Positions 18,920 to 27,434 of a stretch of DNA of 32,547 nt are shown here, piece by piece. The stretch comes from Pirellulales bacterium (GTDB taxonomy: Bacteria; Planctomycetota; Planctomycetia; Pirellulales; S012-138). The DNA lies in NCBI GenBank assembly GCA_028066245.1, contig JALCBR010000059.1:1-32547 (forward strand), read 5' to 3'. Numbering within the stretch: position 1 is the first letter of the stretch; each line of letters opens with the position of its first letter. The notes under the pieces are model-generated. The model searched no databases. It saw only the letters and a program-made list of their open reading frames with translations, and was not told the DNA's origin. The translations under genes and the position numbers were made by a program.

Positions 18920-21900
18920 CTAAGCACTCTTTGCGGCTCGTCCGCAGCATTGCTTGTACTTTTTGCCACTGCCGCAGGGACAAGGGTCATTGCGACCGAC
19001 CTTTGTGCCCATGTTGCGGATGGGCTCGGGCTTGCGGTCTGAGGTGCCGCTACCGTCGATGGCCGCTTGTTGTTGCTGTGCGATCTCGCTGGTCGACGCA
19101 GCCTGATCATGGCGGGCTTCTCCGCCGGACCACGTTTGGCTGACAAAGTCGTCATCAATTCGTTCCATGCGGAAGATCAAATCGGTGACTTGCTCGCCAA
19201 TGGAATTCCACATCAGCTCGAATTGGCGCATCCCTTCGCGCTTATACTCGACCTTGGGATCCACTTGACCCAGCCCTCGCAAGCCCACGCTGGAGCGAAG
19301 ATAGTCCATCGCCAGCAAGTGCTCTTTCCAGGCATTGTCCAACACTTCCAGCACGAGCCGCCGCTCCATACCGCGGATTTCCGGACGATAGCGATCCTCG
19401 ACAGCGGCGATAACTCGAGCGGAAAGTTCTTCGCCATCTAACGCGGCCAAGTCATCCGTTGAGGCCGTGGAACCGGTGTGCTCCTCCAACCAATGGGAAA
19501 GCGAAGCCAAGTCGCCATTTCCTGACGTTTGTCCGTTGGACCTGCCGTTTCCGTTGAGTGCCCGGCTAACCCGCTGCTGTGCATCGGCAATGGCATCTTC
19601 GGTTCGCTTTTGGTTTTCCCGGCTGCTGTCCAACAGGATTTCGACGATATCATCCCGCTGCTTGCTCTTGGTGACTTCCGCAAGATCGACATCAAACCGC
19701 TGCTTGGCCCAATCAAGCATTCCCTCTCGGTCGTATCGCTTCTGGCCGGATTCATCCCGCTGCATGAAGTGCGCGACGCCAGCCATGACCGGATATTCGG
19801 CTTCTTTCTCGCCGTAGGCATCCGTGGCCCTATCAAAAATCAGGTTCTTAAATTCTGTCGGCTCCAGGTCTTTGACGTCTTCCAGCGCGATGTCCAAGTT
19901 AAACTTATAGCTCAGCCAAGAAAGAGCCGTACGAACGCCGAAATCGCGGTCGAGATACTTCGCACCTTCAGAACAGTCAGTCTTCTCGATGGCCGCCGCC
20001 ACCATCTCGTACAGTTCGTCTTCCAGGCTATCCCGGCCAACTTTCTTGAGATCCCGGTCGCGGAGGCTGAGTGACCAACGCGAGTTGGCAAACGTGGCCA
20101 TCGCTTGCCAGTTCCATTCGTTGGGGTCTTCCGCTTCAGGAAGGTTCTCATCTGCCGCATCGCGGATTTGCGCTTCGGCCAAACGTTGGGCTTCGTCCTT
20201 GGCTTGGCGGTCAGCGGTGGCGAAATCCGTGTCCCGGAAATCGCTGGGCTGCAATCCGTCCACCCGCAATTGCGACTCCATCCATTTGGCGAACGTGGCC
20301 GGGCCGTAATCCGGGCTCAAGAACTCATCCAAGTGAGTGTCAATTTGTCCGCGAATCATATCGAGGATTAACGTCTTGCAATTGACGCCGTTGAGAATCC
20401 GCTGACGGTAGCTGTAGACGCGTTTTCGCTGCTCGTCCATGACCTCGTCATATTCCAGCAGGTTTTTGCGGATATCAAAGTTCTTTTCCTCAACGCGTTT
20501 TTGGGCGCCCTCAATTCGGCGACTTACCATCCGGCTCTCGATGGCCTCACCTTCCTTCATGCCCAAGCGGGTGAGCAAACCTTTGACCCAGTCGCCGGCA
20601 AAGATCCGCATCAAGTCATCTTCCAATGAAAGGAAGAACCTGCTGCTGCCGGGATCGCCTTGACGTCCGGAGCGACCGCGTAATTGGTTGTCAATCCGGC
20701 GGGCTTCATGCCGCTCCGTCCCAATAATGTGCAATCCACCCAGACCGAGGACCTCCGCGCCTTCAGCCTGCATGTTCTCGCGCTTTTCGATCTCCGTGAC
20801 GAGTGAATCCCATTCTTCACGGGGAACGTCCAGCCGGGTGGGGTACTTCTCCTGCAATTGAGCCCAGGCCATGGTTTCTGGGTTGCCGCCCAGTACGATA
20901 TCTGTCCCGCGGCCGGCCATGTTGGTGGCGATGGTCACGGCAGCTTTGCGCCCGGCTTGGGAGACGATCTCGGCTTCGCGCTTATGATGCTTGGCGTTAA
21001 GCACCTCGTGTTTGACGCCGCGACGGTTGAGGAGATCAGAGAGTCGCTCGCTCTTCTCGATGGAGACCGTGCCGACCAGGATTGGCCTGCCGCGCCGCTC
21101 GCTGCTGATGAGCTCATCTTTGGAGATCGTTTTCGGCTTGCGTTCGCCTTGGGAGAGAAACTCAATCGCGTCATCGGTCTCGTTCTTGATTTCGCCAAAG
21201 AGTTCTTCCTTGTCACCGGTGACTTGCAGCACGTCCCATTTGTGAATCCGCTCGATCTCATCAGCCAATGCGTTGAACTTCTCCTTTTCCGTCAGGTAGA
21301 TGACGTCCGCAAAGTTCTTCCGCTGCAGCCCGCGGTTGGTGGGAATAGCAATGACATCCAACTGATAGATCTTCCAAAACTCGTTGGCTTCCGTCATGGC
21401 GGTGCCGGTCATGCCAGCCAGCTTGTTGTAGAGCTTGAAGAAGTTCTGCAACGTGATGGTTGCCAGGGTTTGGTTTTCTTCCTTGATCTTGACGCCTTCC
21501 TTGGCTTCCACGGCCTGATGAAGACCGTCAGACCAATGCCGGCCGGGCATGAGGCGACCAGTGAACTCATCCACGATCACGATTTCGTTATTCTGCACGA
21601 CGTAGCGCACGTCGCGCTTGTACAGATGGTGAGCCTTGAGTGAGTTGTCGATCAGATGCGGCCATTCCATGTTGCCGGCGGTATAGAAGCTTTCCACGCC
21701 GGCCAACTTTTCCGCCTCGCGAACTCCCTCATCAGTGAGATGGCAGGTGTGTTCTTTCTCCTTGATCTCAAAATGAACGCCTTTTTTCAGGCTGCGGGCG
21801 ACCCGGTCCGCCTTTTGATATTTGGTAATGTCGTCGTGTGCCGGTCCGGAAATGATCAGCGGAGTTCGGGCTTCATCGATCAGGATGTTGTCAACTTCGT

Positions 21901-22609
21901 CAATGATGGCGAAATTTCGCCGCTGTACCTGTTGAAACCGCTTGGCAAAACGATCGTCGCCCATCGCGGCGGGTTTCATATTGTCCCGCAGATAATCAAA
22001 GCCGAACTCGTTGTTCGTGCCGTATGTGATATCGCACTGATAGGCTTGCTGGCGTTCGTCCGCCGGCATGTCTGAATAGATAGCCGCTACGGTCAGCCCC
22101 AACCCCATGTACAGCGGACCCATCCATTCCATATCACGCCGGGCGAGATAGTCATTGACCGTGATGACGTGAACGCCTTTACCTTCTAGCGCGTTCAAGT
22201 AGGCGGGCAGCGTGGCGACGAGCGTCTTGCCTTCACCGGTGACCATCTCTGCGATGGCGCGAGAGTGCAGCACCATGCCCCCAATCAATTGCACGTCGTA
22301 GTGCCGCATGCTGAGATAACGGCGGCCAGCTTCCCGCACTGCCGCAAACGCTTCCACCAGCACGTCATCCAAGGTCTCGCCACGGCTCAATCGCTCACGA
22401 AACGTATCCGTCAGCCCACGGAGTTCATCATCGGTGAGTGCCATCATCTTGGGCTCAAGGGCTGCGATGGCGTCAACATTCGGCTGTAACTTCTTGATAT
22501 AGCGATCGTTCGACGATCCAAAGATCGACGTGATCATCCGCGAAAAGAACCCGCCGATGCCTCCGAAGAAGGCGGCGAGGATGTCATTAAGTCTTGAGAG
22601 AAATTCCAT
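18920..22609 (-). CDS. secA: Preprotein translocase ATPase SecA
   Basis: The motor that drives unfolded precursors through SecYEG using ATP. At 1229 residues it is far longer than E. coli SecA (901). Walker A is VTGEGKT (about 123-129), the DEAD-type Walker B region [14 protein letters not shown] lies at 237-250, TGTAM at 401-405, MAGRGTD at 564-570 and [13 protein letters not shown] at 642-654. An extra block of about 48 residues (about 458-506) is inserted just before the conserved [15 protein letters not shown]. The scaffold/wing region is also enlarged, including a Gly/Asn/Ser-rich linker ([14 protein letters not shown]). The C-terminus is a complete zinc SEC-C motif, [14 protein letters not shown] (C-x-C-x8-C-C), used for SecB or phospholipid contact in the family. 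It starts 98 bases downstream of a good promoter and appears monocistronic. Confidence 0.97.
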
Positions 22610-25560: not shown

Positions 25561-26751
25561 ATGCAATCACCGATCTATCTGGATGCGCATGCCACCACGC
25601 CTGTTGATCCGCGCGTGGCGGAAGTGGTGTTGCGGATGATGACCGAAGATTTCGGCAACGCCGCGAGTGTGCAGCATGAGTTCGGAAATGTCGCACAACG
25701 GGCAGTGGAACAGTCACGCGAGTTGATTGCAGGCGCGATTGGCGCGAAGCCACGCGAGTTGGTCTTCACCAGTGGGGCGACGGAGAGCAACAACCTGGCC
25801 ATTCGCGGCTTGATCGAACGGGCGGATGACTCGCGCAAGAAGATCGTAGGACTGATCACTGAACACAAAGCTGTGCTTGATCCGCTTGCTCGCGCGGCAC
25901 GGCGCGGTTTTGAAGTCCAAACAGTGGGCATTCAAGGCGCGGATTGCCCGCGGCCAGGTGTTGTGGATCTCGACGAACTTCGCGCTGCGGTCACTGACGA
26001 GACCTTGCTGGTCTGCGCGATGTTGGCAAACAATGAGATCGGCGTAATTCAACCGATACAGGCGATTGCTGAGATCTGCCACCAACGGGGAGCGCTGTTG
26101 TTTTGTGACGCCGTTCAAGCGTTGGGAAAAATTCCGATCAACCTGGCGGACTTGGGGGTAGACCTCGCCAGCTTCAGCGCTCACAAACTGTACGGCCCCC
26201 AAGGCGTCGGAGCGCTCTTTGTCCGCCGAGGTGTGAGTCTGACCGCGCAGGTCGACGGTGGAGGACACGAGCGGGGTGCGCGCAGTGGGACGCTCAACGT
26301 GCCAGGCATCGCAGGCTTTGGCAAAGCCGTGGAAATCTGCCAGCAAGAAATGCCGATGGAATCCAAGCGGTTGAGTGTTCTCCGCGATCAATTGCTTGCG
26401 GGTTTGTGTGAACGTCTTCATGGCGTTTTTCTCAATGGGCCGCCGCTCGATGCCAAATGCGATGATGGCTCACTACTACGGCTGCCACACAACTTGAATT
26501 GTTCCTTTGCCGGCGTTGACGGAGACGCGTTGATGGCCGCCATTCGACCCTTGGCGGTCAGTTCCGGCAGTGCCTGCACGACGAGTGATCCACGGCCAAG
26601 CCATGTGATTTCCGCGCTTGGTCGAAACGATGAACTCACACGGGCCGGCTTGCGATTCGGTCTGGGGCGATTCAATACCAAAGCGGAAACTGAGCAGGCG
26701 ATTGAAATCGTCGCCAACGCCGTCACGCGCTTGCGAACAATGCGCGGCTAA
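25561..26751 (+). CDS. Cysteine desulfurase, NifS/IscS family
   Basis: A 396-residue pyridoxal-phosphate enzyme that takes sulfur from cysteine as an enzyme persulfide for iron-sulfur clusters or tRNA thiolation. Visible features: N-terminal IYLDAHATTPVDPRV, the TSGATESNN cofactor loop, His102 in EHKAV, DAVQALGK, the PLP-binding Lys209 in SFSAHKLYGPQG, RSGTLNVPGI and the active-site loop with Cys339 in SSGSACTTSDPRPSHV. That loop is the long type of IscS/NifS (group I). No iscU, iscA or nifU gene is adjacent, so its sulfur acceptor is not shown by context. It lies 18 bases after the Nudix-like gene. Assignment to IscS or NifS cannot be settled from the sequence alone. Confidence 0.94.
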   Translation: MQSPIYLDAHATTPVDPRVAEVVLRMMTEDFGNAASVQHEFGNVAQRAVEQSRELIAGAIGAKPRELVFTSGATESNNLAIRGLIERADDSRKKIVGLITEHKAVLDPLARAARRGFEVQTVGIQGADCPRPGVVDLDELRAAVTDETLLVCAMLANNEIGVIQPIQAIAEICHQRGALLFCDAVQALGKIPINLADLGVDLASFSAHKLYGPQGVGALFVRRGVSLTAQVDGGGHERGARSGTLNVPGIAGFGKAVEICQQEMPMESKRLSVLRDQLLAGLCERLHGVFLNGPPLDAKCDDGSLLRLPHNLNCSFAGVDGDALMAAIRPLAVSSGSACTTSDPRPSHVISALGRNDELTRAGLRFGLGRFNTKAETEQAIEIVANAVTRLRTMRG

Positions 26752-26762
26752 AGGTCATGGCC

Positions 26763-26779
26763 ACTCGCCCCGGGCGAGT
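26763..26779 (+). terminator. Hairpin after cysteine desulfurase
   Basis: A 17-base near-perfect palindrome, ACTCGCCCCGGGCGAGT, 11 bases after the stop codon. It can form a GC-rich stem of 6-7 pairs. No T-run follows, so intrinsic termination is possible but weakly supported. Confidence 0.4.
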
Positions 26780-26831
26780 CATGCGCACACAGAGTTCGCA
26801 GATTGGATTTGGACAGCACCTGACTTCAAGT

Positions 26832-27022
26832 CGAGCAGAACTGCAATCAACAAACGCTCGAGATAATTTTCTTGATTGTTATTCCTTTGTTGGTGTTCCA
26901 TCGCTTCGTGGACGTGTGATTTGAATTGCCGCGGCGTTTTCCGAGCGACCTGTTCTCAGGCGTACGGGCGAAATTGACATTGGTCAAGTTTTTCCCGCCT
27001 CCAGGGTGTGGCGCAAACGCTT
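26832..27022 (-). repeat. Interspersed repeat, copy B
   Basis: The reverse complement of this stretch aligns with 1-194 with scattered substitutions and single-base gaps. The gaps break the reading frame that is open in copy A, which argues against a maintained protein. Its core at 26956-26987 is a perfect 32-base inverted match to 27156-27187 in copy C. Confidence 0.75.
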
Positions 27023-27187
27023 CATGGCCAGCAATTAACCAGCAATGGCACCGACAACATCACCGACAACCTTGACGTTACGTTCAGTAGCATGTTAACC
27101 GTCAACCTCCTATGGCGCTCGGCAGCGCGCATGTTCGCCGGAAACATCCCAAAATTTGACCAATGTCAATTTCGCCCGTACGCCTGA
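26956..27187. repeat. Perfect 32-base inverted repeat enclosing 168 bases
   Basis: Bases 26956-26987 and 27156-27187 are exact reverse complements. Each arm contains TTGACCAATGTCAA, itself a 5-base palindrome with a 4-base centre, and CGTACG. The layout resembles a miniature transposable element or a head-to-head pair of genomic repeats, but no transposase or target-site duplication is visible. Confidence 0.8.
27028..27070. repeat. Two short direct-repeat pairs inside the inverted repeat
   Basis: CCAGCAAT occurs at 27028-27035 and 27039-27046 (11-base period). CACCGACAAC occurs at 27049-27058 and 27061-27070 (12-base period). They lie in the spacer between the arms of the 32-base inverted repeat. 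The function is unknown. Confidence 0.55.
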
Positions 27188-27200
27188 AAGGATGGCGCGC
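27151..27200 (+). repeat. Interspersed repeat, partial copy C
   Basis: About 50 bases match copy A (positions 32-81), from AAAATTTGACC through GATGGCGCGC. Similarity stops abruptly on the right and fades on the left, so this is a fragment oriented like copy A and opposite to copy B. Confidence 0.7.
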
Positions 27201-27434
27201 AACCTCCCATATCGAGAGGTGACTTGACAGCATCTGCCTGGGCGAGTGGAACGACAATCGGACAGGTGCTCTAAGTTTGTCTTGCCACGCCAAGCGATGC
27301 GGGCGAGGATGATGTCGCGCCGGGGGCTCGGTTTAGAATGACCATCGCGTCCCGCTCGGACGGATTTCGTCAGTTGGGGTTTTCAGGGAAGGATCTGGAT
27401 CAGGTCCAAGAAAGAAGCCACAAGGAACTGTTCG

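Follow-up and report, generated by a model that had tools for sequence, protein, structure and literature searches.

The window (the whole stretch of DNA analysed here, 32,547 nucleotides from a Pirellulales genome) contains one complete copy of a dispersed repeat and a second one that is truncated where the contig begins (Table 1). At the centre of the complete copy, a 32-bp left arm, TCAGGCGTACGGGCGAAATTGACATTGGTCAA, is the exact reverse complement of a right arm, with 168 bp in between. An earlier note on this DNA had described this perfect inverted repeat, and direct reading confirms it; once mismatches are tolerated, the arms reach 48 nt at 88% identity. The same note had pointed to a palindrome within the arms, which we find as TTGAC-CAAT-GTCAA, and to a near-copy of the arm at 37-68, which is real and lies within the longer match that makes up the second copy. 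Elsewhere in the window, the minus strand carries a SecA-like protein of 1229 aa (18920-22609). Because its P-loop domain ends at residue 687 and the wing/scaffold match begins at residue 998, this protein seems to bear a long insertion.

Table 1. Parts of the repeated element in the window and core-less relatives elsewhere in the genome
Feature	Position	Strand	Remarks
Whole element copy, A-core-B	26749..27273	+	right end 27273 firm; left end recognisable from ~26809
Outer flank A	26749..26955	+	left part uncertain
Left inverted arm	26956..26987	.	perfect, 32 bp
Spacer	26988..27155	.	168 bp; no coding frame supported; conserved and apparently mosaic across the family
Right inverted arm	27156..27187	.	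perfect, 32 bp; palindrome TTGAC-CAAT-GTCAA at 27156-27169
Outer flank B	27188..27273	+	terminates in ...CAGGTGCTCTA
Second element copy, cut by contig start	1..273	-	core remnant 1-64, flank A 66-273
Core-less relatives	C123:36850-36945; C59:102063-102175; C8:112307-112410 (approximate); C59:30770-30943

When 40 copies are aligned, homology continues far outside the arms, for about 210 bp beyond one arm and about 90 bp beyond its partner. The element as a whole measures about 525 bp and consists of flank A (~210 bp), a core of arm, spacer and arm (228 bp) and flank B (~90 bp); where both ends can be recognised, most copies are 496-523 bp long. The earlier suggestion of a miniature mobile element thus stands insofar as we are dealing with a MITE family, but the mobile unit is the ~525-bp element and not the inverted repeat alone, since the element ends some 200 bp and 85 bp beyond the arms. 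In every case where both arms occur, they point towards one another, 196-200 bp apart from start to start, and the spacer, whose constancy the note had proposed to check, spans 168-172 bp across copies. In the window, the family consensus matches by BLAST at 26809-26958 (A), 26959-27184 (core) and 27185-27273 (B), and the end pattern matches at 27249-27273. Positions 1-60 of A are no more similar to 26741-26810 than to shuffled sequence; the left end of this copy probably coincides with the TA in the stop codon upstream (26749), its outermost part being heavily decayed.

The host genome is a draft of 4,941,997 bases in 186 contigs. Allowing up to three mismatches, the arm pattern matches it 99 times in forward and 104 times in reverse orientation (203 in total), against no match for a reversed control pattern, and paired arms put the number of element copies at about 100. 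The earlier view that such arms exceed chance and constitute a dispersed unit is therefore well founded. Neither of the two findings that the note held would count against it, an arm confined to three places or one belonging to a conserved coding gene, is what we see: there are about 100 copies, none of them shown to be coding. A sample of 800 kb, made up of stretches of six large contigs, holds 22 family matches, 17 of which include the core, and no complete core that lacks any outer flank. The palindrome occurs 22 times in this sample, every time within a copy of the element. One isolated single arm, at C45:137380-137418, sits in a decayed palindrome and looks as if a deletion between short GTCAA repeats had removed its spacer. 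Note that many contigs of the assembly start or stop inside the element, window position 1 being one example, so that the family is itself a major cause of assembly fragmentation.

To judge from the genomes searched, the family is confined to the host lineage. The arm pattern is absent from 39 other genomes, the nearest of which belongs to the same family as the host; in 398 genomes of the class, a 250-base consensus (BLAST) matches the host alone, as does a 130-position profile in 197 genomes of the order, and plasmid and viral searches return no match. A putative relative in an Anaerolineae MAG, a single exact 21-base match in the genome collection with nothing further in common, we put down to chance.

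Several candidate functions were considered. The arms may act as a protein-binding site or form a functional RNA hairpin, two of the possibilities raised in the note. A protein-coding core is not supported: both strands have open frames, yet these contain frameshifts and internal stops and show no clear codon-position pattern, and a short hydrophobic peptide frame, MLLNLTSGLPVMFAVPLLVNCWA, has a variable start codon and breaks in some copies. A known RNA family was likewise rejected, five loci yielding 0 Rfam matches at E<=1. The strongest distant covariation in the spacer (columns 182-194, T-A/C-G) is not continued into a helix. Finally, TTGACCAATGTCAA is no general regulator operator: within the 800 kb, it is confined to the element.

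Where might the element have come from? Both outer ends open with TAGAGC (TAGAGC.../...GCTCTA), often after a C, the end reading TAGAGCGCTTTTCTTGTTGACGTTCC in flank A and TAGAGCACCTGTCCGATTGCTGTTCC in flank B; compared by eye, these terminal inverted repeats share TAGAGC and agree at about 19 of the first 27 positions. The earlier note saw no transposase, which holds for the window; elsewhere in the genome, a search with PF13358, the IS630-family DDE domain, finds two decayed copies with similar ends and no intact IS630-family transposase, both copies being frameshifted or truncated. The two, at G000:C16:19011-19617 (L188) and G000:C60 ~38880-39456 (L187), are 90% identical to each other. One of them starts CTAGAGCGACTCTTTGATTGCTGTTCCG, like the end of flank B. 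Both finish in GGAAAAACGCTCT, the complement of which resembles the start of A, the corresponding IS630 end reading CGCTCTAG and being preceded by GGAAAAA. L187 and L188 are likely former drivers of the MITE. Since the element has no DDE transposase of its own it is non-autonomous and not IS630 itself, and because its TAGAGC ends resemble those of the decayed copies, the outer element is best read as an IS630-type MITE, apparently with no intact transposase to serve it. Insertion of IS630 elements takes place at TA, often CTAG. In most copies TA flanks both ends, as (C)TA / TA(G); TA would then be the target duplication. A comparison with relatives yielded no empty site, the genes on either side of the element being on separate contigs there.

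The genome also contains small relatives of 95-173 bp that have the same TA-type ends and no core (Table 1). Three of these, C123:36850-36945, C59:102063-102175 and C8:112307-112410 (approximate), keep B only from about position 20-25, which suggests a shared MITE subfamily of ~100 bp.

Copies are intergenic, tend to adjoin the 3' ends of genes and avoid divergent promoters. By approximate gene calls, 17 of 41 copies lie between convergent, 22 between tandem and two between divergent neighbours, at a median distance of 9 bp from neighbouring gene 3' ends; about 20% of short gaps in the sample are convergent and 20% divergent. An element inserting into the TA of a stop codon would recreate a TAG stop there and hence be tolerated. 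The same placement bias has been reported for pneumococcal repeats (PMC3049150), and it needs no function of the element.

The core and its flanks seem to have had separate histories. Conservation changes sharply at the arms: across 52 complete copies, mean pairwise identity is 0.87 in the core versus 0.70 in each flank, and rare variants occur at a rate of 1.2-1.5% in arms and spacer versus 2.5-3.7% in flanks. Core columns are mostly near-invariant, with about 30 sites dimorphic at high frequency. Twelve pairs of cores are at least 95% identical, compared with none in 300 column shuffles, and how alike two cores are says nothing about how alike their flanks are (Mantel r = -0.10 and -0.01). 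In one of these pairs, L006 and L032, the cores are identical throughout and lie in opposite orientation, while the flanks, at 67-69% identity, are no nearer to each other than those of random pairs; the other eleven are 95-98% identical, each with its own differences. Within the core, linkage declines with distance (none of 5000 permutations is as low) and all four gametes are present at 435 of 496 site pairs, although short-range linkage may derive partly from multi-base mutations. Core haplotypes thus appear to be mosaic and common to copies with unrelated flanks. The identity of L006 and L032, the highly similar pairs unlinked to flank similarity, the falling linkage and the four gametes all argue for exchange of core sequence between copies. 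The two arms of a copy are not homogenised with one another: columns 133 and 144 are dimorphic only on the left and column 310 only on the right, which counts against the explanation favoured below.

The segment between the inverted arms is also found in both orientations. In the assembled sequence, 43 of the 52 cores have the standard orientation relative to their flanks and nine are inverted, and there is no hybrid copy with two A or two B flanks. On the core tree, nine changes are needed to account for the nine inverted cores, at least four of which are forced by well-supported branches. Inversion, if real, has therefore occurred repeatedly, because inverted cores sit on separate branches. 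As assembled, the sequences support both exchange between copies and recurrent inversion, and in this respect the earlier idea that the arms serve as a recombination site has gained ground.

We consider it likely that the feature is a copy of a non-autonomous, ~525-bp IS630-type MITE whose core is exchanged and inverted by recombination anchored on the arms. In this scenario, an IS630-family transposase acting in trans would have spread copies at TA (CTAG) sites, after which the outer flanks would have drifted as independent relics. The 228-bp core would have continued to trade sequence with other copies through homologous recombination or gene conversion anchored on the near-identical inverted arms, and would have been turned around by the same process or by crossing-over between both arms of one copy. 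Since a core with inverted arms can pair with its partner in either direction, a single process could account for both outcomes. As to enzyme and trigger (hairpin cleavage and repair, for example), we infer candidates: RecA-type gene conversion, possibly provoked by hairpin cleavage and repair, arm crossing-over within a copy, or a dedicated recombinase.

In a draft of 186 contigs, many of which end in the repeat, misassembly could mimic some of the exchange and inversion: the family would be real, with inverted and shared cores reflecting wrong paths through a 100-copy repeat. The one pair of exactly identical cores is what such wrong paths might produce. Against this, cores are mostly distinct, the eleven further pairs carry differences of their own and the 800 kb contain no runs of N. 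Assembly error has to be taken seriously where inversion and core identity are concerned and less so for the family's existence and nature; overall we regard it as unlikely.

Somewhat less probable still is that a site-specific recombinase encoded elsewhere uses the arms as its targets, inverting the core and swapping cores as cassettes. The ~100 old MITE copies would then be fixed docking sites, between and within which the core moves and flips via its arms, possibly through a dedicated recombinase, an equally doubtful proposition; if true, cassettes and docking sites would evolve as two separate populations. The abrupt change in conservation at the arms, their near-invariance, the restriction of the internal palindrome to the element and the recurrence of inversion would all fit. 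However, none of the copies seen has a recombinase linked to it, recombination within the spacer is not something that cassette exchange would produce, and with ~100 sites active in both directions one would expect chromosomal rearrangement.

Alternatively, selection for a functional RNA or DNA structure might hold the core in place at each locus, with little exchange between copies. Low rare-variant rates in arms and spacer and the many near-invariant columns would be expected, and the invariance of the arms could indeed reflect selection. We think this account improbable as a whole: selection alone does not yield identical cores on unrelated flanks or mosaic haplotypes, Rfam returned nothing, no helix is supported outside the arms and placement agrees with tolerated insertion. 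Least probable is that the core is a younger transposon in its own right, with the middle of an older MITE as its specific target, for although it has diverged less than the flanks, occurs in both orientations and is missing from outer relatives (C59:30770-30943, C123:36850-36945 and C59:102063-102175), it never stands complete without an outer flank in the 800 kb, the single A-B copy found without it has an untidy joint, and target duplication at the arms is not seen.

Recombination anchored on the arms would act on a family that otherwise has the tested features of an IS630-mobilised MITE: it is short, has ~100 copies, terminal inverted repeats and no supported coding frame, and has two decayed IS630 relatives with similar ends. 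The IS630 copies of the same genome share with it TAGAGC ends at a CTAG-like site, their left end resembling B and their right end A over the first bases; they differ from it in encoding a transposase, frameshifted or truncated in both. Closest in kind is the MITE-like RUP repeat of Streptococcus pneumoniae, whose ends resemble those of IS630-Spn1 (PMC3049150). RUP likewise has about 100 gene-less copies, ends in common with an IS630-family element and an over-representation between convergent genes; it is, however, ~107 bp and AT-rich, whereas the element described here is ~525 bp with a long inverted-repeat core that appears to recombine and invert. Correia repeats, a Neisseria MITE, are alike by description, with more than 100 copies and an inverted-repeat structure (PMC10969869). 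Inversion of Correia elements, reported in work cited by that review, is described for the element, whereas in our family an internal core appears to invert against fixed outer flanks. REP, BIME and REPIN sequences are also high-copy extragenic palindromic repeats in paired inverted arrangement (PMC2817692, PMC3116915); REPs are 20-40 bp units tied to RAYT transposases, whereas our pair lies inside a larger IS630-ended element. A small literature search turned up no MITE in which recombination and inversion affect the core without involving the flanks.

As a rule, bacterial MITEs are regarded as passive remnants, decaying at the same pace throughout. In this family, however, centre and edges appear to differ in history, the edges drifting as a star while the centre recombines and inverts. 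If long reads confirm this picture, ~100 loci in one genome would form a natural data set for recombination between short dispersed repeats and for hairpin inversion, and the dating of such elements would hinge on which part is chosen.
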